From the NCBI RefSeq assembly GCF_000270285.1, contig NC_015738.1, positions 2,976,001 through 3,040,000 on the forward strand: DNA of 64,000 nt, read 5' to 3'. Made by a program: the position numbers and the translations under genes. The notes below the pieces were generated by a model. That model saw only the letters and a program-made list of their open reading frames with translations, was not told where the DNA came from and searched no databases. Shown here one piece after another: positions 51,843 to 64,000 of this stretch (its first letter is position 1; each line of letters begins with the position of its first letter). The DNA comes from Eggerthella sp. YY7918 (lineage in GTDB: Bacteria; Actinomycetota; Coriobacteriia; Coriobacteriales; Eggerthellaceae).

Positions 51843-51890
51843 TGGAGCGGGTGACGGGACTCGAACCCGCGAATACAAGCTTGGGAAGCT
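51843..51890 (-). pseudogene. Diverged 3'-half copy of tRNA-Gly (possible attachment-site remnant)
   Basis: These 48 bases match the 3' half of the intact tRNA-Gly at 52074: the anticodon loop TTCCCAA, T-arm GGGTTCGAGTCCCGT and CGCTCCA end, with a few substitutions and one extra base. The 5' part does not fold: the anticodon stem is broken and no GCGGGTG exists to pair with the acceptor. A duplicated tRNA 3' half is what integration by a tyrosine recombinase leaves. tRNA finders may call a poor tRNA here. Confidence 0.7.
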
Positions 51891-52073: not shown

Positions 52074-52147
52074 TGGAGCGGGCGACGGGACTCGAACCCG
52101 CGGTACAGGCTTGGGAAGCCTGGGCCTTACCACTTGGCGACGCCCGC
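52074..52147 (-). tRNA. tRNA-Gly (anticodon CCC)
   Basis: A 74-base gene with encoded CCA. Acceptor arms GCGGGCG and CGCCCGC pair fully; the anticodon loop TTCCCAA is closed by CAGGC/GCCTG; the T-arm contains GGGTTCGAGTCCC. It lies next to an integrase and near a diverged copy of its own 3' half. Confidence 0.97.
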
Positions 52148-52227: not shown

Positions 52228-53598
52228 CTATGCGGCCTGCGGCAGCGATTCGAGCCGTGAGACGTACCTGTTGGATAGCTCCCTGCTTGTCGAGGGGATG
52301 TAGCCCACATAGAGGTCGAGCGTATAGGACGGCGACGCGTGTCCGAGGATGACGGAGATGGTCTTGATGTTCTCGCCGCGAGCGAGGTTGATGGTGGCGA
52401 ACGTATGCCGCAGCGCGTAGGGGCGCACGCCCTCGAACCCCACCTTCTCCACGAACCTTTGCCACTGCTTCTTGAGCACGTTGTAGGTGAGGGGCTTGTC
52501 AAGTTCTCCCACGAGAGGCGTGCTTGGGCCGGGCCTGATGCCCATGGCGCGCAGGCGTCTGCTCTTCTCCTCTATCCATCTGCCTATCTCGCGGGAGGTG
52601 TAATCGTCGATAGGAACCGTGCGGTACGACGAATCGGACTTCGTATACTCAACGATTTCCGCCGTCCCGTGTTCGAGCGACCCGGTGATTCTCGCCGAAG
52701 GGACGCCGCCGACGTTGACGCCGCCCATCTTCAAAGCGAGTGCTTCCTCGGGGCGCATCCCGCTGGAGAAAAGGGCGAGGCACGCCACCTTGAAAGGCGA
52801 CAGGGGAAGCGCCTTCACTTCGTGGAGGAACCGCGCCGCATCCTCCTCCATGAGAGGGTCGATGAGCGGGCGGCTCTTCTTGAAGTTCTTGGAGAGGAAG
52901 CGCGCCTTCGCCACGTTCTTCTGCACGAGCTCCCTATCCAGCGCGTCGTTGAGGATCTCGCGGCAGAATTTGAGGATTTTGTGCTGCATATCGGGCCCGG
53001 CAACGCGCGGGGAGCCGAGCGGCTTCTTCTTCCGTCGATTCCCCTCGCGCACCGCCTGCTCGCGTTTCCTTTTCCATTCCTCCACGCGCTCGTTTGCCCA
53101 CCGCCGCGAAATCTCGGGCACCTGAAGCAGGCATCGCTCCACGTCCATCGCCGTCAAATCGCGAAGGGGGATAAGCCCTATTACCTCACGCAGGTACTCG
53201 GCGTATCGCCGCTCGTTGGCTAGGGTTTGCCTTCCTATGGCCCCATTGCTGCGGAGCGCAATGTAACGCTCAACGTACTCTCCGAAAGGCGTTGCGGGAC
53301 TCAGCGGTGAAACGTCTTGCGCCCCAATGCCCACCCCCGTCGTCCTATCTTCAAGCATTCTGTTGGCATCTTCCTCGAACTCGGCGATGCGCGCCCTGAG
53401 TTCTTCGCGCTTGTTGCGGGCGAACACCGTCCGCGACAGCTTCTTGCGCCCCATGACCCCCTGGAACTCGGCGGGCACCCTGATGCGCAGTTCGTAGGCG
53501 GTCGCTTTCGGGTCGTCGCGCTTCCTGCGGGGAAGCCCCTTCGCCTTCCTCGCCTCATCGAGATCCACGGGCTTGTCGCATTTGAGCGTCTTCGTCAT
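52228..53598 (-). CDS. int: Site-specific tyrosine recombinase (integrase)
   Basis: A 456-residue phage/ICE-type integrase: arm-binding and SAM-like core-binding domains, then a catalytic domain. The first catalytic Arg lies in SSGMRPEEALALKMG, the second in RPYALRHTFATINL (the usual His before Leu-Arg is Tyr here), followed by LGHASPSYT and the nucleophile Tyr near DLYVGY. The start is ATG 53598 after GGAGGAGA. It overlaps the HTH gene upstream by 44 bases, so they are coupled. Its stop lies 80 bases from tRNA-Gly, a preferred target of such enzymes. Confidence 0.95.
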   Translation of the reverse strand: MTKTLKCDKPVDLDEARKAKGLPRRKRDDPKATAYELRIRVPAEFQGVMGRKKLSRTVFARNKREELRARIAEFEEDANRMLEDRTTGVGIGAQDVSPLSPATPFGEYVERYIALRSNGAIGRQTLANERRYAEYLREVIGLIPLRDLTAMDVERCLLQVPEISRRWANERVEEWKRKREQAVREGNRRKKKPLGSPRVAGPDMQHKILKFCREILNDALDRELVQKNVAKARFLSKNFKKSRPLIDPLMEEDAARFLHEVKALPLSPFKVACLALFSSGMRPEEALALKMGGVNVGGVPSARITGSLEHGTAEIVEYTKSDSSYRTVPIDDYTSREIGRWIEEKSRRLRAMGIRPGPSTPLVGELDKPLTYNVLKKQWQRFVEKVGFEGVRPYALRHTFATINLARGENIKTISVILGHASPSYTLDLYVGYIPSTSRELSNRYVSRLESLPQAA

Positions 53599-53941
53599 TC
53601 TCTCCTCCATCTTCGCGCCTGTTCAGATAGCGTAGGAGGCAGAGCTTGGGAACCAGCCACTTCGACCCGAACTTGACCCCGCGCATCTCGCCCGCCGCCA
53701 ACAGCTTCCTCACGCCCTGCGACGTGAGGCCCGTGAACTCGGCTATCTGGCAGGGGGTCATCATGTAGGGGTACGGTTCGAGCGCGGGCAGGAACAGCCC
53801 GCCAGGGTCGGCCCCGCAAAGCGCCTCGTCGTCAAACGCCGCCTCCGCGCGACGCTCATAATGAGCCATTTCGGCAGAGCGCGAAACGATGCGATTTTCC
53901 GCATCGCATGCTTGACAAGGGACGAAAGGCCGCGCGGTCAT
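53555..53941 (-). CDS. HTH protein, excisionase-like
   Basis: A 128-residue protein. The N-terminal 55 residues have a Cys pair (CQACD) and no known fold. The C-terminal half is a MerR/Xis-type helix-turn-helix (MMTPCQIAEFTGLTSQGVRK, then GEMRGVKFGSKWLVPK), as in excisionases and small element regulators. It starts with a four-base overlap (ATGA) to the MazF-like toxin and overlaps the integrase start, so the three genes form a coupled unit. It may direct excision, regulate the unit, or take the place of an antitoxin. Confidence 0.7.
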   Translation of the reverse strand: MTARPFVPCQACDAENRIVSRSAEMAHYERRAEAAFDDEALCGADPGGLFLPALEPYPYMMTPCQIAEFTGLTSQGVRKLLAAGEMRGVKFGSKWLVPKLCLLRYLNRREDGGENDEDAQMRQARGSR

Positions 53942-54692: not shown

Positions 54693-55145
54693 CTAGAAAC
54701 CGGAAGAGAGAATCTCTTTCAGGTTCTCTCGCGCAAGACTGATGCTGCGTCTCACTGCGCGATCGGAGCACCTCTCTACTTCGGCTATCTTCGCCGTGGG
54801 CATACCAAGCAAGTGCCTCATCAGAAAACGCCTGCGTTGTGCGGCGGGTATCTGCTGGAACGCTTGAAACAGCGCTTCGGATTCCAGCTTCTCCATAAAG
54901 ATTAACTCTGGGTCTTTTTCGGGATTGTTGGGGGCAAGAGAGGCTTCGTCCATCGACGCCAAGTGTAGTGAGTGTCTTGTCTCGCGGCGCTCCGTTCGCC
55001 AGAACTCACGCTGAAGTTCCTCTATGCCCTCGAATACTTGCCTGGGCAGATTTATCTCGGTTCGTTTGCCGTCAGGCGTCCTCACCACAATGCGATATTG
55101 GGCTTGGGAGTCGTCAATGTTCCTGCTTTCGTAAAATCGGGCCAT
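54693..55145 (-). CDS. Sigma-70 region 4-like protein of a mobile element
   Basis: A 150-residue protein. The N-terminal third (RIVVRTPDGKRTEINLPRQV) resembles small element proteins. The C-terminal 80 residues are a sigma region 4-type helix-turn-helix (ALFQAFQQIPAAQRRRFLMR, then MPTAKIAEVERCSDRAVRRS). Such proteins in Clostridia and Coriobacteria conjugative elements act as element-specific transcription factors. No region 2 is present, so it is not a complete sigma factor. It precedes the mazF-HTH-int unit by 242 bases, which hold no recognised gene. Confidence 0.75.
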   Translation of the reverse strand: MARFYESRNIDDSQAQYRIVVRTPDGKRTEINLPRQVFEGIEELQREFWRTERRETRHSLHLASMDEASLAPNNPEKDPELIFMEKLESEALFQAFQQIPAAQRRRFLMRHLLGMPTAKIAEVERCSDRAVRRSISLARENLKEILSSGF

Positions 55146-55968: not shown

Positions 55969-56688
55969 TCAAGATTCCGTCAAAGAGCCTGCTGTTGTCG
56001 TTATGAGGAGATTGAAAAATGGCACAAATGCCCATTGTCCGTTGCAGGAATATGATCTTTTTGATTTAAGCAGTTGGGCATGGTAGCGCCCAACAACCAG
56101 TTCTTTGGGTTGGTTGTTGGGACGATGTGAATCCAGATAAAACATGACCTCGCAATCAGTGAAATCGAGCCACTTCCCATACGTTGGAAACCATGCCTTG
56201 TAGACAGATTCTTTCGCGCTGAAAGTCAGCCTATCCCAAGATATATTTGGCTGACTGCAGGTAAGCTCACCCATCTGTTTTATCTCCTTCTTGCTCATTA
56301 TCAAACTGTATATCTCTGATTCAATGGGGTTATTCGGCTCGGCGTCAATCCCGATAGTTCGAAATCGGTAATCTGAGGTGACTGCGGCAGCGGCATATCC
56401 TCTGCAATGCGTAATGCTCCCGCATATGTTTTTGGGCCAAATCGGTTCTCGGTTGGTACCGATGAGGATAGGAGGGTCATTGAAGCCCAGATGCGAGAGA
56501 GCGTTGCGAGCACATTTGCGCCCAACGGAAAACTCTTTCAGGCGTTTAGAAGAAAAACTTCGTGATATTTCCTTTTCTTTCCCAATAAGAGGAAAACCGT
56601 AAAAAGACCCCAGGTATTCTGAAGAAAACACTTCCTCTGGTAGTAAGGAGGCTAAAAAACCGGAATTGAATTTAGGAAAGCCAATCAC
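55969..56688 (-). CDS. 4'-phosphopantetheinyl transferase (Sfp/EntD type)
   Basis: A 239-residue transferase that moves phosphopantetheine from CoA to a serine of acyl- or peptidyl-carrier proteins. The conserved blocks are CGSITHCRGYAAAAV, TIGIDAEPN with the Mg-binding Asp, and WDRLTFSAKESVYKAWFP, the hallmark of the Sfp/EntD class that serves NRPS, PKS and siderophore systems (not the short AcpS class). The start is GTG 56688 with AGGGGTGGT upstream. It ends the metK-cysK-ahcY operon, 41 bases after ahcY. Two sampled 60-base lines are 48% and 40% G+C, far below ahcY. No carrier protein is encoded in the window. Confidence 0.9.
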   Translation of the reverse strand: MIGFPKFNSGFLASLLPEEVFSSEYLGSFYGFPLIGKEKEISRSFSSKRLKEFSVGRKCARNALSHLGFNDPPILIGTNREPIWPKNICGSITHCRGYAAAAVTSDYRFRTIGIDAEPNNPIESEIYSLIMSKKEIKQMGELTCSQPNISWDRLTFSAKESVYKAWFPTYGKWLDFTDCEVMFYLDSHRPNNQPKELVVGRYHAQLLKSKRSYSCNGQWAFVPFFNLLITTTAGSLTES

Positions 56689-56729
56689 AGCACCACCCCT
56701 AGTATGAACTATACACCCTTGTATACACT

Positions 56730-57986
56730 TTAAAAGTTCCAGCTGTTCATGTAGGCGATCTGCTCCTCGGTGAGGGTGTCTATCTTCACGCCCAGAGTCT
56801 CCAGCTTCACGCGCGCCACGCCGTCGTCGATGGCGGCGGGCACGTCGTACACCTTGTTCTCCAGCTCGCCCGCATGCTGGAAGAGGTACTCGGCCGCGAG
56901 CGCCTGGTTCGCGAAGCTCATGTCCATGACGGACGCCGGGTGCCCCTCGGCGCAGCTCAGGTTCACGAGGCGCCCCTGCGCCAGGACGATGACCGTGCGC
57001 CCGTCGGCAAGCGTGTACTCCTCCACGAGCGGCTTGATCTCCTCCACCTTCACGGCGTGCTCGCGCAGCCACTCCAGGTTGATCTCGCTGTCGAAGTGCC
57101 CGGAGTTGCACACGATGGCGCCGTCCTTCATGTTCTCGAACGCGGGCGCGTCCACCACCTTGCAGTTGCCGGTGACCGTCACCCACACGTCGGCGAAGCG
57201 CGCCGCCTCGGCGGCGGGCATGACCTCGTAGCCCTCCATGTGCGCCTCCAGCGCCTTCAGCGGGTCCACCTCGCACACGATCACGCGCATGCCCATGCCC
57301 TTGGCGCGCAGGGCGAGCCCGCTGCCGCAGTAGCCGTAGCCCGAGATCACGATGGTGCGCCCGCACAAAAGGCGGTTCGTGGCGCGCACGATGCCGTCGA
57401 GCGTGGACTGGCCCGTGCCGTAGTGGTTGTCGAAGCAGTGCTTCGTGTTCGCGTCGTTGACGTTGAACACGGGGTAGCCCAGCGTGCCCTCCTTCGCCAT
57501 GGACACAAGGCGCACCACGCCCGTGGTGGTTTCCTCGGTGCCGCCGATGACGCCTTCCAGCTTGTCAATGTGGGTGGTGTGCAGCGCGGTGTCCAGGTCG
57601 GCGCCGTCGTCCATGATGATCTGCGGGTTCGTGGCGATGACCGCGTCGATGTGGCGGCGGTAGGTGTCCATGTCCTCGCCGGTGACGGCGAACACCTTGA
57701 TGCCGAAGTCGCGCACGAGCGAGGCGGCGGTGTCGTCTTGGGTGGAAAGCGGGTTGCTGGCGCACAGCGCCACCTCGGCGCCCGAGGCCGCCAGCGCGCG
57801 CATGAGGTTCGCCGTCTCGGTGGTCACGTGCATGCACGCGCCGATGCGCACGCCCTCAAGCGGGCGCTCCTTCGCGAAGCGCTCGCGGATGGACGCCAGC
57901 ACGGGCATGTCGCGCGCCGCCCACTCGATGCGGGCAAGCCCTGCGTCGGCAAGGTCGATGTCTTTGATGTCGTAGCTCTCGGTCAT
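56730..57986 (-). CDS. ahcY: Adenosylhomocysteinase
   Basis: A 418-residue SAH hydrolase that splits S-adenosylhomocysteine to adenosine and homocysteine, removing the inhibitor of methyltransferases. It has CMHVTTETANLMRAL, NVNDANTKHCFDNHYGTGQS (substrate and NAD sites), the Rossmann loop GYGYCGSGLALRAKGMG and the C-terminal FQHAGELENKVYDVP. Length and motifs are normal. It is very G+C-rich and has long antisense open frames as a result. It lies in an operon between the cysK-like gene and the phosphopantetheinyl transferase. Confidence 0.97.
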   Translation of the reverse strand: MTESYDIKDIDLADAGLARIEWAARDMPVLASIRERFAKERPLEGVRIGACMHVTTETANLMRALAASGAEVALCASNPLSTQDDTAASLVRDFGIKVFAVTGEDMDTYRRHIDAVIATNPQIIMDDGADLDTALHTTHIDKLEGVIGGTEETTTGVVRLVSMAKEGTLGYPVFNVNDANTKHCFDNHYGTGQSTLDGIVRATNRLLCGRTIVISGYGYCGSGLALRAKGMGMRVIVCEVDPLKALEAHMEGYEVMPAAEAARFADVWVTVTGNCKVVDAPAFENMKDGAIVCNSGHFDSEINLEWLREHAVKVEEIKPLVEEYTLADGRTVIVLAQGRLVNLSCAEGHPASVMDMSFANQALAAEYLFQHAGELENKVYDVPAAIDDGVARVKLETLGVKIDTLTEEQIAYMNSWNF

Positions 57987-58037
57987 GGCGCTTCTTTCTT
58001 ATGTTATCGACTGATCCTATGTCTGGTTTGGCGTCGA

Positions 58038-58967
58038 TTAATCCTCAAACAATTCAGTGGAAAAATATCGTTCGCCCGTATCGGGCAGTAAAGTAACCAC
58101 TGTCTTGCCCGAACCAAGTTGCCGAGCAAGCTGACGTGCGGCAACCACATTTGTACCGCCCGATACGCCGCAAAGCAAACCCTCCTCACGAGCAAGCGCG
58201 CGAGCCTCGTTGATAGCTTCCTCATCGGAAACCACGCAGATATCGTCATAGATGCCCTGATCAAGGATATCGGGAATAAGCCCATCGCCGATACCCATCT
58301 GCAAATGCGTTCCGACGCTTCCTCCCGAAAGAATCGCTGCGCTCTCCGGCTCAACGGCCCAAATGCATACATCAGGAAAAAGACGTTTGAGTGCCTGCCC
58401 TATACCGGAAATAGTACCACCTGTACCAATGCCCGAGCAGAATCCATGTATGGGCCCCTTCACGTCCTCTAAGATCTCAAGTGCTGTATGATAGCGATGC
58501 GCTAGTAAATTATCCCTGTTCTCGAACTGCTGTGGCACGTAAACACGAGGATCCTCGCTAGCCATACGCTTAGCCAGAGCGATGCATTTGGATATGCACT
58601 CTCCAATATCGCCAGCATCATGTACGACAATTACCTCAGCACCATAGTGGCGAACAAGCTTACGACGCTCTTCCGACACGCTGTCTGGCATAATGATGCG
58701 CGCACGATAACCGCGCACAGCACACACAAGCGCGAGCCCTATACCTTGATTGCCGCTTGTAGGTTCAACGATAATACTATCTGGCCCAATTTCGCCGCGG
58801 CGTTCGGCGGATTCAATCATCTGTAATGCCGTGCGCGTTTTAATGGAGCCTCCTACATTAACGCCCTCAAACTTAACGAGTATCTGTGCGGCATTCGCTT
58901 CAGATAACCGATTGAGACGAACGAGAGGTGTATGCCCCATGGCTTGCAGCACATTATCGTAAATCAT
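58038..58967 (-). CDS. cysK: Cysteine synthase-like PLP enzyme
   Basis: A 309-residue fold-type II PLP enzyme. The Schiff-base lysine is in VGGSIKTRTA near residue 43, the substrate loop is EPTSGNQGIGLAL (Gln where classic CysK has Thr), the phosphate loop GTGGTISG and the ring-nitrogen Ser in GVSGGTN. It most likely makes cysteine from O-acetylserine and sulfide. Related enzymes make diaminopropionate precursors or cystathionine, and the altered loop leaves this open. GGAAGGAG precedes the ATG, 29 bases after metK. Sampled lines are about 48-58% G+C, between its neighbours. Confidence 0.88.
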   Translation of the reverse strand: MIYDNVLQAMGHTPLVRLNRLSEANAAQILVKFEGVNVGGSIKTRTALQMIESAERRGEIGPDSIIVEPTSGNQGIGLALVCAVRGYRARIIMPDSVSEERRKLVRHYGAEVIVVHDAGDIGECISKCIALAKRMASEDPRVYVPQQFENRDNLLAHRYHTALEILEDVKGPIHGFCSGIGTGGTISGIGQALKRLFPDVCIWAVEPESAAILSGGSVGTHLQMGIGDGLIPDILDQGIYDDICVVSDEEAINEARALAREEGLLCGVSGGTNVVAARQLARQLGSGKTVVTLLPDTGERYFSTELFED

Positions 58968-58996
58968 GGAACTCCTTCCAAGGGGGTGCTAGCCCC

Positions 58997-60289
58997 TTAT
59001 GCTAGCCTGCAGGTCTTTCGCAGATCCTCGGCGCGGTCGGTGCGCTCCCAGGTGAACTCGGGCAGCTCGCGGCCGAAGTGGCCGTAGGCGGCCGTCTTGC
59101 GGTAGATGGGGCGGCGCAAATCCAGCGCGTCGATGATGGCGCCGGGGCGCAGGTCGAACACCTCGGCCACCGCGCGCTCGATGGCCCCCACCGCCGCCTT
59201 CTCGGTGCCGAACGTCTCCACCATGAGCGACACGGGGCGCGCCACGCCGATGGCGTAGGCCACCTGCACCTCGCAGCGCGCGGCCAGGCCCGCGGCAACC
59301 ACGTTCTTCGCCACCCAGCGCGCCGCGTAGGCCGCCGAGCGGTCCACCTTCGTGCAGTCCTTGCCGGAGAAGGCCCCGCCGCCGTGCCGTCCCATGCCGC
59401 CGTAGGTGTCCACGATGACCTTGCGGCCCGTGAGGCCGCAGTCGCCCATCGGCCCGCCGATGACGAAGCGGCCCGTGGGGTTCACGTGGATCTCCGCGTC
59501 GGGCGAGAGCGCCACGCCCTCGCCGGCCAGCACCGGGCGCACCACCTGCTCCACCACGTCGGCGCGCAGCCGCTCGTAGGGCGCCTCCTCGGCGTGCTGC
59601 GTGGACACGACCACCTTCTCCACCCACTTCGGCGCGCCGTCCTCGTAGCGCACGCTCACCTGGGTCTTGCCGTCGGGGCGCAGGTAGTCGAGCGTGCCGT
59701 CCTTGCGCACGGCGGCGAGGCGCTCGCTCATGCGCTGGGCCAGGTAGATGGGCATGGGCATGAGGGTGCTCGTCTCGTCGCAGGCGTAGCCGAACATCAT
59801 GCCCTGGTCGCCCGCGCCGATGCGCTCGTAGGGGTCGTCCGCGGCCCCGCCGTGGGCCGCCTCCCAGCTCTCGTCCACGCCCTGCGCGATGTCGGGGCTC
59901 TGCTCGTGGATGGCGTTCACCACGCCGCAGGTGGTGCCGTCGAAGCCGTACTTGGCGCGGTCGTAGCCGATGCCGCACACCACCTCGCGCACGATGGCCG
60001 GCACGTCCACGTACGCCTGCGTGCGGATCTCGCCCGCCACGGCCACGAGCCCCGTGGTCGCAAGCGTCTCGCACGCGCAGCGCATCCGCGACACGTCGGC
60101 GGGCTGCCCGCTGGGGGCGATGTAGCCCTCGCGCTCGAGCTCTATCTCCTTGGAGATGATGGCGTCCAAGATGGCGTCCGATATCTGGTCGCACATCTTG
60201 TCGGGATGCCCCTCGGTGACGGATTCGGACGTGAACAGGTAGGATTTTGGCAAAGCGATCGATAAGCTTGGCCTTTGCTCTATCGTCAT
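58997..60289 (-). CDS. metK: S-adenosylmethionine synthetase
   Basis: A 430-residue enzyme that makes SAM from methionine and ATP. Motifs are complete: [32 protein letters not shown], the phosphate loop [19 protein letters not shown] and the closing [14 protein letters not shown]. Two sampled 60-base lines are 68% and 72% G+C, well above most of the window, suggesting a foreign source. It starts 58 bases after the DtxR-type gene and leads the metK-cysK-ahcY-PPTase run. I see no SAM riboswitch in the short leader. The ribosome site is weak (AGAGAG). Confidence 0.97.
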
Positions 60290-60332
60290 TTCAATTCTCT
60301 CTATACTTTAGATTGCCCATTATCCAGCTTAT

Positions 60333-60350
60333 TTAGGTTGATGACCCTTA
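60333..60350. promoter_or_regulatory. Imperfect metal-box-like repeat before metK
   Basis: TTAGGTT, four bases, ACCCTTA. The left half equals the DtxR/IdeR consensus half-site; the right half matches five of seven. The spacing is one base shorter than the 7-5-7 consensus. Lying between the repressor stop and metK, it may allow metal control within the operon. Confidence 0.35.
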
Positions 60351-60728
60351 TTGGACGTCCATCTTGCTCGACAGCTCCTTTTTTAAAGCCTGATATGACT
60401 CTTCGCTCATTGCGTGCTCCATGCGACAGGCATCCCTTTGTGCAATTTCAGTCGGAATGCCAAGGTTGGTAAGAACCTTGAAGAAGAAGCAATGGCGGTC
60501 GTAAACTCTTTCAGCGATTTTGCGTCCCCCATTTGAAAGGCGAACCAAACCTCGAGGCCTAAATTCAACATATCCTTCCGCGCTCAAGGAGGACATAGCT
60601 TTTGATATGCTCGCCTTGGAAAAACCCATTCTACTGGCCATATCCACTTGCCTTACAAAACCACCAGAACGAGTTTCGAGAATAAGCAGGTTTTCTAGAT
60701 AGTCTTCCCTTGACTCACTCAAAGTCAT
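60348..60728 (-). CDS. DtxR/MntR-family metal-dependent repressor
   Basis: A 126-residue regulator. The N-terminal winged helix (SREDYLENLLILE, VRQVDMASRMGFSKASISKA, LSAEGYVEFRP) is followed by the dimerisation and metal domain with DRHCFFFKVLTNLGI and DACRMEHAMSEE, which supply the Glu, Cys/Asp and His ligands. It lacks the SH3-like third domain, as in MntR. It lies 14 bases after the ABC genes and 58 before metK, so metal status (Fe or Mn) probably controls the operon. ATG 60728 is preferred over GTG 60737 because GAGGTGG precedes it. Confidence 0.92.
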   Translation of the reverse strand: MTLSESREDYLENLLILETRSGGFVRQVDMASRMGFSKASISKAMSSLSAEGYVEFRPRGLVRLSNGGRKIAERVYDRHCFFFKVLTNLGIPTEIAQRDACRMEHAMSEESYQALKKELSSKMDVQ

Positions 60729-60742
60729 CAGTTCCACCTCAC

Positions 60743-62479
60743 TTAATTCAAAATCCGACCCGTCGACGACTGAAGCTCCACCATTTTCTTGAACAGGCTG
60801 TCTTCGCGCTCCATGAGCTCCGACGGCTTTCCTTGCTCGGCAACGCGGCCTCCATCCAGCACCACGATTTTGTCGGCGCTCATCACGGTTCTCATCCGGT
60901 GCGCGATGACCAGCACGGTTTTGCGTTCAAGGAGACACGATAGCGCCTCCTGCACCTTCGTCTCATTTTCAACGTCAAGTGAAGCGGTCGCCTCATCCAG
61001 AAGAACAATGGGGGCGTTTTTGAGGATCGCCCGGGCAATCGATATGCGCTGGCGCTCGCCTCCGGACAAAAGCGCGCCGTTCTCGCCTATCCTCGTTTCA
61101 TAGCCCTTCGGCATGCGGGAGACAAAATCATCGCAGTTCGCCGCCCGAGCCGCCGCAAACACCTCCTCATCCGTGGCATCTGGCCTACCGAGTCGGATGT
61201 TCTGCATGATCGTGTCGTCGAACAGAACCACATCCTGGAACACTTGGGCGAAATCGACGAGAAGGGCCTCGGGGTCGACGGTCGAAACGTCCACGCCTCC
61301 GATGCTCACAACGCCATCGTCGGCATCCCAGAAACGGGCAGCCAGCTTGGCCGCGGTGGACTTGCCGCCCCCGCTCGGACCGACCAAGGCGGTCACCTCG
61401 CCCTCCTTCGCAACAAATGAGACGTTCGAGAGAACCTTCTCGCCTCCTTCGTACGAAAAAGTCACGTTGTCGAAAGAAATGTCGTGATTCGCCGGCTCGA
61501 ATTCCATCGACCCGGTTTGAGGCCGCTCGTGCTCGATGGAGTGCATGCGCTTGATTCCGAGCTTGAGATTGAGAAGCTCCGTCACAACTTCAAGCACGGT
61601 GTTGATCGGATCGTAGAATCTCGTCACCACGAGAAGGAAGCAGAAGTACACCATGAACTCTAGTTCCCCCGATGCCAAAAGCAGGGCTCCGACGAGGACG
61701 GTCGAAGCTATTCCGAGCTTGAGGAACGCTTGCGCGGCCGACACGGGAACGGCACTCGAAAGCTCCGAGACGATCTGGGCCTTCTCCGCGCGATCGATCT
61801 TCTGATCCAGTTGCTCGAGATACGTTTCCGATTGGTTCGCCGCCGTGATCTCTTGGGCGCATTCGAGGTACTCCTGCAAGCCGTCCGCAACGTCAAGCTG
61901 GCGGTCGATGAGAAACTGCCCCTTCGCATCTTGGCTCTTCCGAGAGAAGGCGATGATGAGCAAGGCGATGGGAAGAACCCAGAGGGCGGCGATGGCCATC
62001 TTCCAGTTGAAGAGCAGAAGCATGATCGAGATCAATATGGTCGACGCGCCGGTTCCGAACAAAAGGGGCATGATATGGGAGAACATGCGCTCCTGATCGG
62101 CGCAGTCCTTCATGATGGTGGTGGTGAGGTCCGAGAGGTCGCGCCTTCCGAAAAAGGAAAGGGGCAATCTGCGCAGCACCTCGGCAAGCTCGATCCGCTT
62201 TCTGGCACTCTCGCCGTACACGACATTGTAGGTGAAATGGTATTCGAGCCATTGGGTCAGCAGCATGAGCAGGAGTATGACGACGATGGCTGCAAGATAG
62301 CCACCAAGAGCAGGGAGGGGCTTCGAGGGGTCGAGCAGATGATCCAGGTAGTCGTTGGTCGCCATGCACAGCACGCCAATGGGTGCCATCATGACGAGGT
62401 TGGCGAGAGCGCAGAAGAACGCGCCTCTCTTGAACTCGAAAGCACCCCGCTCGGTCAAAGCGAACTTCTCACGCAGCAT
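60743..62479 (-). CDS. ABC half-transporter (permease-ATPase), second of a pair
   Basis: A 578-residue type IV (exporter-fold) ABC half-transporter. Six membrane helices span residues 20-310, with the ATPase after 345: Walker A GPSGGGKST, signature LSGGERQRISIARA and Walker B IVLLDEATASLD. Such heterodimers with two different halves include drug exporters and the siderophore importers IrtAB and YbtPQ. The position next to a DtxR-type repressor favours metal or siderophore traffic. The start is ATG 62479 after GGAGGGGG; it overlaps the previous half-transporter by 11 bases. Confidence 0.92.
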   Translation of the reverse strand: MLREKFALTERGAFEFKRGAFFCALANLVMMAPIGVLCMATNDYLDHLLDPSKPLPALGGYLAAIVVILLLMLLTQWLEYHFTYNVVYGESARKRIELAEVLRRLPLSFFGRRDLSDLTTTIMKDCADQERMFSHIMPLLFGTGASTILISIMLLLFNWKMAIAALWVLPIALLIIAFSRKSQDAKGQFLIDRQLDVADGLQEYLECAQEITAANQSETYLEQLDQKIDRAEKAQIVSELSSAVPVSAAQAFLKLGIASTVLVGALLLASGELEFMVYFCFLLVVTRFYDPINTVLEVVTELLNLKLGIKRMHSIEHERPQTGSMEFEPANHDISFDNVTFSYEGGEKVLSNVSFVAKEGEVTALVGPSGGGKSTAAKLAARFWDADDGVVSIGGVDVSTVDPEALLVDFAQVFQDVVLFDDTIMQNIRLGRPDATDEEVFAAARAANCDDFVSRMPKGYETRIGENGALLSGGERQRISIARAILKNAPIVLLDEATASLDVENETKVQEALSCLLERKTVLVIAHRMRTVMSADKIVVLDGGRVAEQGKPSELMEREDSLFKKMVELQSSTGRILN

Positions 62480-64000
62480 CGTTGGCACCCCCTCCGATTC
62501 TCCAAGAGACTGATTTCTGATAGTCCTCCCACATCCGGCGATACACTCCCTTGCTTTCGACAAGATCCCCGTGGGATCCCGATTCCGAGATGGCCCCGTT
62601 CTCCACGACGCAGATCCTGTCCGCGCCCACCACGGTCGATAGCCGGTGTGCAATCATGAGAACGGTCTTGCCGTGCGTAAGACGCGCGAGCGCACGTTGG
62701 ATAAGGGCTTCGTTTTCCGGATCGGCGAACGCTGTGGCCTCGTCCAAGACCACGATAGGCGCATCTTTCAGAATGGCCCGGGCAAGCGCGATACGCTGGC
62801 ATTCGCCGCCCGACAGGTAGACGCCCTTCGCGCCGACCACCGTGTCCAAGCCCTCGGGCAGCTTCGCGATGATGTCGTCGCATTGCGCCGCGTGCGCGGC
62901 CGCCTCCACCTCCGCGCGCGTAGCCGACGGGCGCGCGAATCTGATGTTGTCAATGAGGCTGCGCTTGAAAAGCCGTGTGTTTTGGAAGACGAAGGAAACG
63001 GAATCCATCAGTTCCGAACGGGGAACATCCCGCACATCAACACCGCCGACAAGCACCCGTCCTTCATCGACGTCCCAGAACCTCGGAACAAGGCTTGCAA
63101 TGGTGCTCTTGCCTCCTCCCGACGGCCCGACGAGCGCCATCGTTTCTCCTTCGGGAATCGCAAAGCTCACGTTCTTGACGGCAGGTGCGTCAGCGCCCGG
63201 ATACGTGAAAGACACCCCTTCAAAAACGATATCGCACGTCCCGCTCGCCCTCCCGCCTTTCGCAGAACAGCAAGGCATCTCCGGCGTGGATAGGATCCCC
63301 TCGATTCGCATCACGGCATCTTGGGCCATCGCCGCAGCTTCAGAGGCGTACAGTATCTTGGTCATCATCGATGTCGTCACCGCGCTGAACACCACGTAGA
63401 AGAGGAAGTCCGTGAAGAACGACGCGAAGTCCCCTGCTGCCCCCGCAAGCAGGATGCTGGCGGGAACCAGCACAGCAAAGGTCGAGTTGATCGCCACGAT
63501 CTGCACGACCTGCGGTTTTTCGCACAACTTCGAATAGCCATGGGCCATATCCCGGTACTGCAGGATGGCCTCCTTGAATGCGTTGAACGAATCGACCGTT
63601 TGCTGGAACACTTTGACGACGGGCATGCCTCGAACATATTCGGTCGCAGCGGCGTTCATTCGGTTCAATGCCTGCTGGTAGTTCGACACGAAAGTCAGAT
63701 AGCTTGAGTTCTCATCGCTGCCTCCCCCTCCCATCATCCTCCAAATGCACGCGAAGGACACCGCGATGGGAACCAGGCACGCCAAACCCATGGCCCAGTC
63801 GAAGATGAACATCACGACGACAAACACAACGGGGGTGATGAGGGCTCCCACGAAATCAGGGAACTTATGGGCAAGCACGGACTCGGTCTGGCCGGCGCAG
63901 CCGTCGATCACCCTCCTTAGTTCGCCGGTCGAATGCTCGTCGTAGTAGCCAAGGGGAACCTTGGAGAGATGGTGGGTCGCGGCCTTCCTCATGTTGTTGC
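62469..64000 (-). CDS. ABC half-transporter (permease-ATPase), first of a pair, 5' end outside window
   Basis: At least 507 residues are visible; the frame continues past 64000, so the N-terminus is missing. What remains covers most of the six-helix membrane domain and the ATPase with Walker A GPSGGGKST, signature LSGGECQRIALARA and Walker B IVVLDEATAFADPENEAL. In its Walker B extension the usual Ser-Leu-Asp after ATA is Phe-Ala-Asp, a feature seen in YbtP/YbtQ- and IrtAB-like transporters. Together with the gene after it (11-base overlap) it would form a heterodimer. Confidence 0.92.
   Translation of the reverse strand, partial: NNMRKAATHHLSKVPLGYYDEHSTGELRRVIDGCAGQTESVLAHKFPDFVGALITPVVFVVVMFIFDWAMGLACLVPIAVSFACIWRMMGGGGSDENSSYLTFVSNYQQALNRMNAAATEYVRGMPVVKVFQQTVDSFNAFKEAILQYRDMAHGYSKLCEKPQVVQIVAINSTFAVLVPASILLAGAAGDFASFFTDFLFYVVFSAVTTSMMTKILYASEAAAMAQDAVMRIEGILSTPEMPCCSAKGGRASGTCDIVFEGVSFTYPGADAPAVKNVSFAIPEGETMALVGPSGGGKSTIASLVPRFWDVDEGRVLVGGVDVRDVPRSELMDSVSFVFQNTRLFKRSLIDNIRFARPSATRAEVEAAAHAAQCDDIIAKLPEGLDTVVGAKGVYLSGGECQRIALARAILKDAPIVVLDEATAFADPENEALIQRALARLTHGKTVLMIAHRLSTVVGADRICVVENGAISESGSHGDLVESKGVYRRMWEDYQKSVSWRIGGGANDAA

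Follow-up and report, generated by a model that had tools for sequence, protein, structure and literature searches.

The window analysed here, 64,000 nucleotides of Eggerthella sp. YY7918 (C1:2976001-3040000 of the source genome G000, a single contig of 3,123,671 bases), ends in seven minus-strand genes at positions 55969-64319 (positions above 64000 carry the window numbering on into the same contig), which most likely provide supply, transport and control for a salicyl-thiazoline metallophore cluster carried on an integrative conjugative element (ICE). Judged from its gene content, the system is a relative of the pyochelin, yersiniabactin and equibactin kind, and the product of the cluster in gut bacteria is very probably a metal-binding compound resembling pyochelin. 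Its genes, domains and substrate codes, as well as the element and its spread, were read from the sequence.

The seven-gene operon and the adjoining assembly line

A sequence-only reading of the window had described seven minus-strand genes with overlaps or short gaps, and all of them are present and match named families (Table 1), separated by 41, 51, 29, 58 and 5 bp with one additional 11-bp overlap. The distal gene of the ATP-binding cassette (ABC) pair is truncated by the window edge at 64000 and starts at 64319, while the start of the phosphopantetheinyl transferase (PPTase) gene is corrected to a probable position near 56688 instead of 57366, the listed open reading frame traversing ahcY out of frame; the same protein scores 134 bits against NF042923, below the cut-off of 370. 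Between 55000 and 63990 there is no excess of terminator-like sites (7, with a shuffle mean of 8.1) and the number of promoter-like sites is somewhat raised (7, with a shuffle mean of 3.1, sd 1.9), and the seven genes likely form one predicted transcript. The same seven-gene order was found in three genomes, each with a nonribosomal peptide synthetase (NRPS) cluster, a count that leaves the surroundings of other metK and ahcY matches unread.

Assembly genes had been predicted past 64 kb, and they indeed begin 1.1 kb outside the window with an aryl-AMP ligase at 65134 and extend to 79.8 kb; the distance of about 40 kb, whose emptiness had been named as grounds for abandoning the prediction, is thus not empty. 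Of the components expected there, the NRPS genes and an embedded methyltransferase (MT) were found and a salicylate synthase was not recognised. An aryl carrier protein domain (ArCP), heterocyclization (Cy) domains and cysteine-activating adenylation (A) domains are all present as in pyochelin-type pathways, the Cy assignment being based on motifs and on solved heterocyclization relatives of NRPS2, as Pfam gives 'Condensation' only. The NRPS1 A domain is uninterrupted, i.e. without the epimerization insert of PchE, and its nearest solved structure is 7emy (dihydroaeruginoic acid synthetase, 335 bits), which we take to be PchE. In this alignment, at the positions that we take as the A-domain specificity code, NRPS1 reads DLFNLSMIW versus DLFNLSLIW in PchE, and NRPS2 reads DLYNLSLIW by eye; by these signatures both A domains carry cysteine codes. 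The only solved relatives of the thiazolinyl imide reductase at E<=0.001 are two sequences, YbtU/Irp3.

Specificity of the ligase can be read at DhbE positions 240 and 337, described as separating salicylate from dihydroxybenzoate (DHB) enzymes (PMC3672683), where it carries Cys/Leu and is hence of salicylate type. The solved DHB ligases 1md9 and 6e8o have Ser/Val, and the salicylate ligases have Cys/Leu in 5wm2 and Cys/Ile in PchD. Cys/Leu is also found in 5kei, labelled a DHB ligase and presumably MbtA.

From this inventory we infer a product, a metal, a direction of transport and a mode of regulation as follows. The PPTase would prime the carrier domains, the AMP ligase would load salicylate, probably imported, onto the ArCP of NRPS1, and NRPS1 and NRPS2 would each add and cyclise one cysteine, with CysK as cysteine supply. 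The reductase would convert the second ring to a thiazolidine, which the embedded methyltransferase would N-methylate with S-adenosylmethionine (SAM), MetK supplying SAM and AhcY removing the by-product, before the thioesterase (TE) releases a pyochelin-type acid. Because NRPS1 lacks the epimerization insert, an L-configured first ring is predicted by the rule published for such inserts, as far as it is described there (PMC6604713). The YbtPQ/IrtAB-like pair together with the Opp/Nik-type importer would move the compound or its metal complex, and the MntR-like repressor would sense the metal.

Resemblance of the ABC pair to YbtPQ/IrtAB, already proposed from the window, is borne out by the first bacterial solved relatives of both halves being YbtPQ chains among the best 60 matches listed per half (6p6i_A, the partner chain of YbtQ, is taken to be YbtP). 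The repressor has as nearest solved relative an MntR (2h09, 62 bits). An exact palindrome, CTAACATTATGTTAG, lies at 66762-66776 in the divergent ligase/NRPS1 promoter region and is at most a candidate operator, because the element contains 94 similar ones. A shared operator motif was considered and rejected, as this palindrome has no second copy with up to 3 mismatches in 50001-116000 or in the parts read of three other Eggerthellaceae thiazoline clusters (described below).

Table 1. Coordinates of the operon, the assembly genes and the element (window numbering unless another genome is named)
Feature	Position	Strand	Evidence or remark
Left attachment core TTGGGAAGCT	51881..51890	.	10 bases; right core 114010-114019, 62,129 bp apart
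tRNA-Gly(CCC) carried by element, substitutes for split host gene	52074..52147	-	ARAGORN
Tyrosine integrase of element	52228..53598	-	PF00589 51 bits; adjoins carried tRNA
Small HTH_17 protein, possibly excisionase	53555..53869	-	PF12728
Sigma-70 region 4 protein, between integrase and cargo	54693-55145
Sfp/EntD-type PPTase	55969..56688	-	~239 aa; PF17837 and PF01648 over cut-off
ahcY, S-adenosylhomocysteine hydrolase, genome's second copy	56730..57986	-	TIGR00936 608.7 bits, cut-off 498
cysK-like cysteine synthase, second copy	58038..58967	-	TIGR01139 352.6 bits, cut-off 350.95, barely over
metK, methionine adenosyltransferase, second copy	58997..60289	-	TIGR01034 555 bits, cut-off 309
DtxR/MntR-family repressor	60348..60737	-	129 aa; PF02742 and PF01325 over cut-off
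ABC half-transporter, YbtQ-like	60743..62479	-	first bacterial match YbtQ, 283 bits
ABC half-transporter, YbtP/IrtA-like	62469..64319	-	first bacterial match 6p6i_A, 323.5 bits; then IrtA, 281.5 bits
TetR-like regulator	64456-65133	+	NCBIfam MftR2 42 bits, TetR 33 bits, both under cut-off; no Pfam match
Aryl-AMP ligase	65134-66675	-	TIGR02275 466 bits, below cut-off 723.55
NRPS1	66821-70165	+	1114 aa; ArCP-Cy-A-PCP (PCP, peptidyl carrier protein)
NRPS2	70162-75555	+	1797 aa; TubC-type docking domain, Cy, A[MT], PCP, TE
Saccharopine-dehydrogenase/epimerase-like (EqbM-like) oxidoreductase	75552-76574	+	PF03435 26.5 bits (cut-off 25.1), PF01370 31.2 (cut-off 20.9)
Thiazolinyl imide reductase	76571-77554	+	TIGR01761 270.8 bits, cut-off 188.8
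DASS-type symporter	77560-78966	+	PF00939 98 bits; TIGR00785 107 bits, under cut-off
Type II thioesterase	78995-79750	+	PF00975 140 bits
Opp/Nik-type importer (double ATPase, permeases, binding protein)	79760-84525	-	PF00005 twice, PF00528, PF00496; permease at 82037-83014 left out of domain scan
Conjugation genes	87295-96326	-	four scanned
NlpC/P60 protein with SpaA-type repeats, conjugation module	108637-110928
A. hattorii NRPS1	G210 C1:261353-271999 (L051)		counterpart of 66821-70165

Supply genes, objections and alternative explanations

All three supply genes stand beside host copies elsewhere in the chromosome, for metK at C1:1378279 (79% identical to the element copy), for ahcY at C1:1255611 (89%) and for cysK at C1:458951 (43%). 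Third-position GC content is 0.954 for MetK and 0.957 for AhcY amid lower values for CysK (0.471), the PPTase (0.467) and the DtxR-type repressor (0.477), with 0.75 and 0.73 for the ABC pair; metK and ahcY were therefore probably gained separately. In a MetK tree of 32 rows (30 loci plus the host copies of G000 and of Gordonibacter sp. An230, the latter a 293-aa piece at a contig end), the element copy groups with both rows of An230's genus with support 100/99, and the element metK appears to trace to a chromosome of this genus. An AhcY tree built likewise, also of 32 rows, places the element copy among Eggerthellaceae without a firm position. Thus, a metallophore operon of lower GC content seems to have been patched with genes from Eggerthellaceae chromosomes.

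Alternatively, metK-cysK-ahcY may be a passenger methyl- and sulfur-cycle cassette, unconnected with the NRPS product, that aids the element or its new hosts, for instance those lacking AhcY. The separate arrival suggested by the GC content and the nesting of the element MetK in An230's genus fit this explanation, as does the distribution of AhcY: at E<=1e-50 it matched in 55 of 99 family genomes, leaving 44 (some of these genomes being incomplete) without a match. The corresponding count for MetK is 98 of 99. Moreover, the other three thiazoline clusters have no metK, cysK or ahcY match in the stretches read. However, the three genes lie between the repressor and the PPTase at spacings of 29-58 bp, the pathway consumes both SAM and cysteine, and each of the three known copies of the element has the same gene order. 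The unrelated methyl-cycle cassette, which the sequence-only reading had offered as its own alternative, is hence weakened and we regard it as rather unlikely; by their position in the operon and the chemistry of the pathway, the SAM-cycle genes would serve the NRPS pathway.

Several observations weigh against a functional salicyl-thiazoline metallophore pathway with its own supply genes. No match to metK, ahcY or cysK was found around the three other Eggerthellaceae clusters (27.6, 40 and 80 kb read), and the cassette is therefore not essential to such pathways. The ligase falls below the DHB-ligase cut-off (TIGR02275), and its pocket is unusual in having Leu at 236, a Phe or Tyr position in the five aligned ligases, and Ser at 329, where theirs is Val. 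In NRPS2 the terminal Cy domain carries NxxxxD instead of DxxxxD, and the TE motif is GYCMG, with Cys for Ser. Concerning transport and control, eukaryotic ABCB proteins outscore YbtPQ among the best 60 matches listed, the repressor reaches 85 bits against the curated MntR model NF008273 (cut-off 153), and the binding protein of the importer matches the NikA and CntA models under cut-off, missing the curated NikA cut-off with NikA-type models the nearest. Lastly, no gene of the element was recognised as a salicylate synthase, and in the whole genome the only chorismate-binding gene is an isochorismate synthase (TIGR00543 259.8 bits, cut-off 224.75), which scores 86.6 bits against the salicylate synthase model (cut-off 325).

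A source of salicylate can be envisaged in two ways. The genome has one CM_2 match, a 97-codon frame beside a DAHP-synthase-like frame (read by eye); it is placed as an ordinary chorismate mutase would be, and might conceivably act as an isochorismate pyruvate lyase. Alternatively, salicylate may come from outside, which is expected since no synthase was recognised here and since equibactin offers a precedent: as described, its production in defined medium required added salicylate and S. equi 4047 has no identified salicylate synthase (PMC3672683). That the DASS symporter carries salicylate is only a guess, because its gene is split by an insertion in Adlercreutzia hattorii.

Some of these departures raise the question whether the cluster is degraded and silent in the source host. 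The NxxxxD motif would agree with decay, and so would the lack in G000 of two modules present in A. hattorii and the 1.5-kb insertion splitting the A. hattorii DASS gene. But the core genes that were scanned have uninterrupted full-length frames in G000, the blocks covering 51878-78103 match G000 at 99.8-100% identity in both A. hattorii and An230, and the TE Cys recurs in two of the other three clusters, which makes decay quite improbable.

More weight has to be given to the idea that the compound is no iron siderophore and instead carries a different metal (Ni, Zn, Cu or Mn) or serves as a signal or an antibiotic. The MntR-like repressor, the importer binding protein nearest to NikA-type models with CntA also matched, and the solubility of ferrous iron in an anaerobic setting all speak for it, while equibactin, the closest characterised cluster, is described as functioning in iron uptake (PMC3672683). 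A non-iron role is accordingly a serious contender, if somewhat short of an even chance.

The mobile element, its spread and the module number of NRPS1

A 62,129-bp element containing the metallophore cluster sits in the anticodon loop of tRNA-Gly(CCC): the joined flanks give a complete tRNA-Gly(CCC) in ARAGORN, and either junction alone gives none. Besides the integrase and the attachment repeats, the element encodes a relaxase, MobC, a VirD4-type coupling protein, a TraG/VirB4-type ATPase, ParA and ParB, so that integrase, repeats, relaxase, coupling protein and VirB4-type ATPase, by which an ICE is recognised, are all in place. At 99.2-100% identity the element recurs in A. hattorii and Gordonibacter sp. 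An230, i.e. in three genera with the source. Successive blocks of A. hattorii differ by 0 of 4,099, 3 of 14,055, 15 of 9,744 and 264 of 35,957 aligned bases, and in An230 (G266), where the element lies on two contigs, by 2 of 16,594 and 7 of 45,687. Near-identical copies in three genera therefore point to recent movement, and from this identity we infer that the element is excised and transferred. The left flank in An230 retains the 3' half of a tRNA-Gly; that of A. hattorii lacks the 3' half, and its joined flanks yield no tRNA. The complete empty-site proof holds in G000 only. A. hattorii also carries two insertions of ~1.5 kb at sites with 8-base repeats, at the equivalents of 55969-55976 (end of the PPTase gene) and of 78096-78103 (within the DASS gene).

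Copies of the element differ in NRPS1. In A. hattorii it is a frame of 3548 codons, open from the first possible start, with three modules (ArCP-Cy-A-PCP, Cy-A[MT]-PCP, Cy-A-PCP) versus one in G000. All three A domains have 1,333 identical bases in common, copies one and three have 1,664, and the A domains are GC-richer than the adjoining NRPS DNA. An in-frame deletion of 7,056 bases between the first and third copies of the A. hattorii form would give the G000 form. Neither G000 nor An230 has a match to the first A. hattorii-specific segment, and the second has a single weak match of 35 bases in G000 and 48 bases in An230. The An230 contigs (G266 C1:1 and C73:1) break at 68360/68436, overlapping by 77 bases, precisely at the onset of the A-domain repeat; loss of extra modules with small contigs was rejected, the smallest of the 18 contigs examined having 573 bases and the segments being absent. 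The one-module NRPS1 of G000 may be an assembly collapse of a repeat. Taken at face value, the short form would lead to a pyochelin-sized product and the long form to one with four cysteines and two methylations.

A more far-reaching proposal, advanced tentatively, is that of a self-sufficient travelling metallophore factory: the element would bring its own SAM supply, by-product removal and cysteine synthesis, with parts drawn from chromosomes of Eggerthellaceae, and the pathway could thereby run in any member of the family. The identical A-domain DNA would act as a recombination switch for NRPS module number, letting individual copies of a single element yield distinct compounds, with two cysteines here and four in A. 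hattorii. If true, private or shared metal carriers would arise between gut neighbours. With the SAM-cycle genes one can test whether siderophore production after transfer is limited by cofactor supply, and the long and short versions of NRPS1 offer a natural experiment in module number.

The thiazolinyl imide reductase passes its cut-off in 5 of 396 Coriobacteriia genomes, or 5 of 138 family genomes, and at E<=0.001 matches in 49 of the 396, the remaining 44 being weak and under cut-off; among 14 control genomes only E. coli passes. Three of the five genomes carry this element, and G264 and G134 carry other clusters. Relatives of the ligase occur at 14 loci in the genome contig collection, two of them (A. 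hattorii and An230) 100% identical and the other 12 at 23-31%. The further, divergent thiazoline NRPS clusters lie at G264 C12:34527-52486 and G134 C1:922476-944896, and a second one in G000 itself at C1:28659-58942 (L061, L062) contains a PPTase, an EqbM-like gene, a ligase, an ABC pair, a multi-module NRPS, a reductase, a type II thioesterase and a DtxR-type gene. It adjoins a second element, whose conjugation backbone is ~74-84% identical in blocks of >700 bases and whose ends are perhaps marked by recombinase-like frames at 20-24 kb (by eye) and tRNA-Ala(CGC) at 87155. The TE Cys of NRPS2 is common to the G264 and second G000 clusters and not to that of G134. Opp/Nik-type importers in all four clusters were considered and rejected, as ATPase matches elsewhere are weak; those in the G264 and second G000 clusters adjoin membrane proteins which we take to resemble ECF transporter parts.

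Relation to known thiazoline siderophore systems

The pyochelin and enantio-pyochelin genes have the layout PchD-PchE-PchF-PchG. With pyochelin the present cluster has in common ArCP-Cy-A-PCP and Cy-A[MT]-PCP-TE architectures, cysteine codes, a PchD-like ligase and a thiazolinyl imide reductase; it differs in an NRPS1 without epimerization insert, in lacking salicylate genes, in its transporters and in its location on an ICE. With yersiniabactin (HMWP1/2, YbtE, YbtU, YbtPQ) it shares the YbtU/Irp3-type reductase and the YbtPQ-like pair, and the heterocyclization domain of Irp2/HMWP2 is among the solved relatives of NRPS2, whereas no polyketide part was seen here and a salicylate synthase is lacking.

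The closest characterised cluster is, as far as described, the equibactin locus eqbA-N on ICESe2 of Streptococcus equi (PMC3672683), a likeness that rests on family models, the cluster having been set beside the eqb genes by description and not by sequence. Both have a DtxR-like repressor, a type II thioesterase, a PPTase, a salicylate-AMP ligase, two NRPS, a thiazoline reductase, a saccharopine-dehydrogenase-like protein (EqbM, described with this Pfam family in PMC3672683) and an exporter-fold ABC pair (EqbKL), and both lie on an ICE without a salicylate synthase. They differ, according to the same description, in that one A domain serves the PCPs of equibactin, which also has an epimerization domain, versus one A domain per module here, and in a serine recombinase versus a tyrosine integrase at tRNA-Gly. 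No counterpart was recognised among the annotated genes for the EqbN hydrolase, nor for the EqbHIJ importer, in whose place stand the Opp/Nik-type importer and the DASS symporter, and the available text of the equibactin paper contains neither 'adenosyl' nor 'cysteine synthase'. Likened by description only, the putative siderophore island 023_CTn1 of C. difficile RT023 and NRPS cluster 1 of C. kluyveri (PMC6814731) are also equibactin-like clusters of anaerobes, located on a mobile element or close to one.

These comparisons place a pyochelin-type pathway in gut Eggerthellaceae, with near-identical copies in three genera, for which no report was found by title or abstract in the open-licence literature, though one may exist elsewhere. 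A 2026 survey states, in the part available, that finders based on chelator genes miss clusters without such genes, and cites equibactin for its reliance on outside precursors (PMC12971057). Relative to the known systems, the metK-cysK-ahcY cassette beside normal host copies, the Opp/Nik-type importer and an NRPS1 of variable module number are new here.

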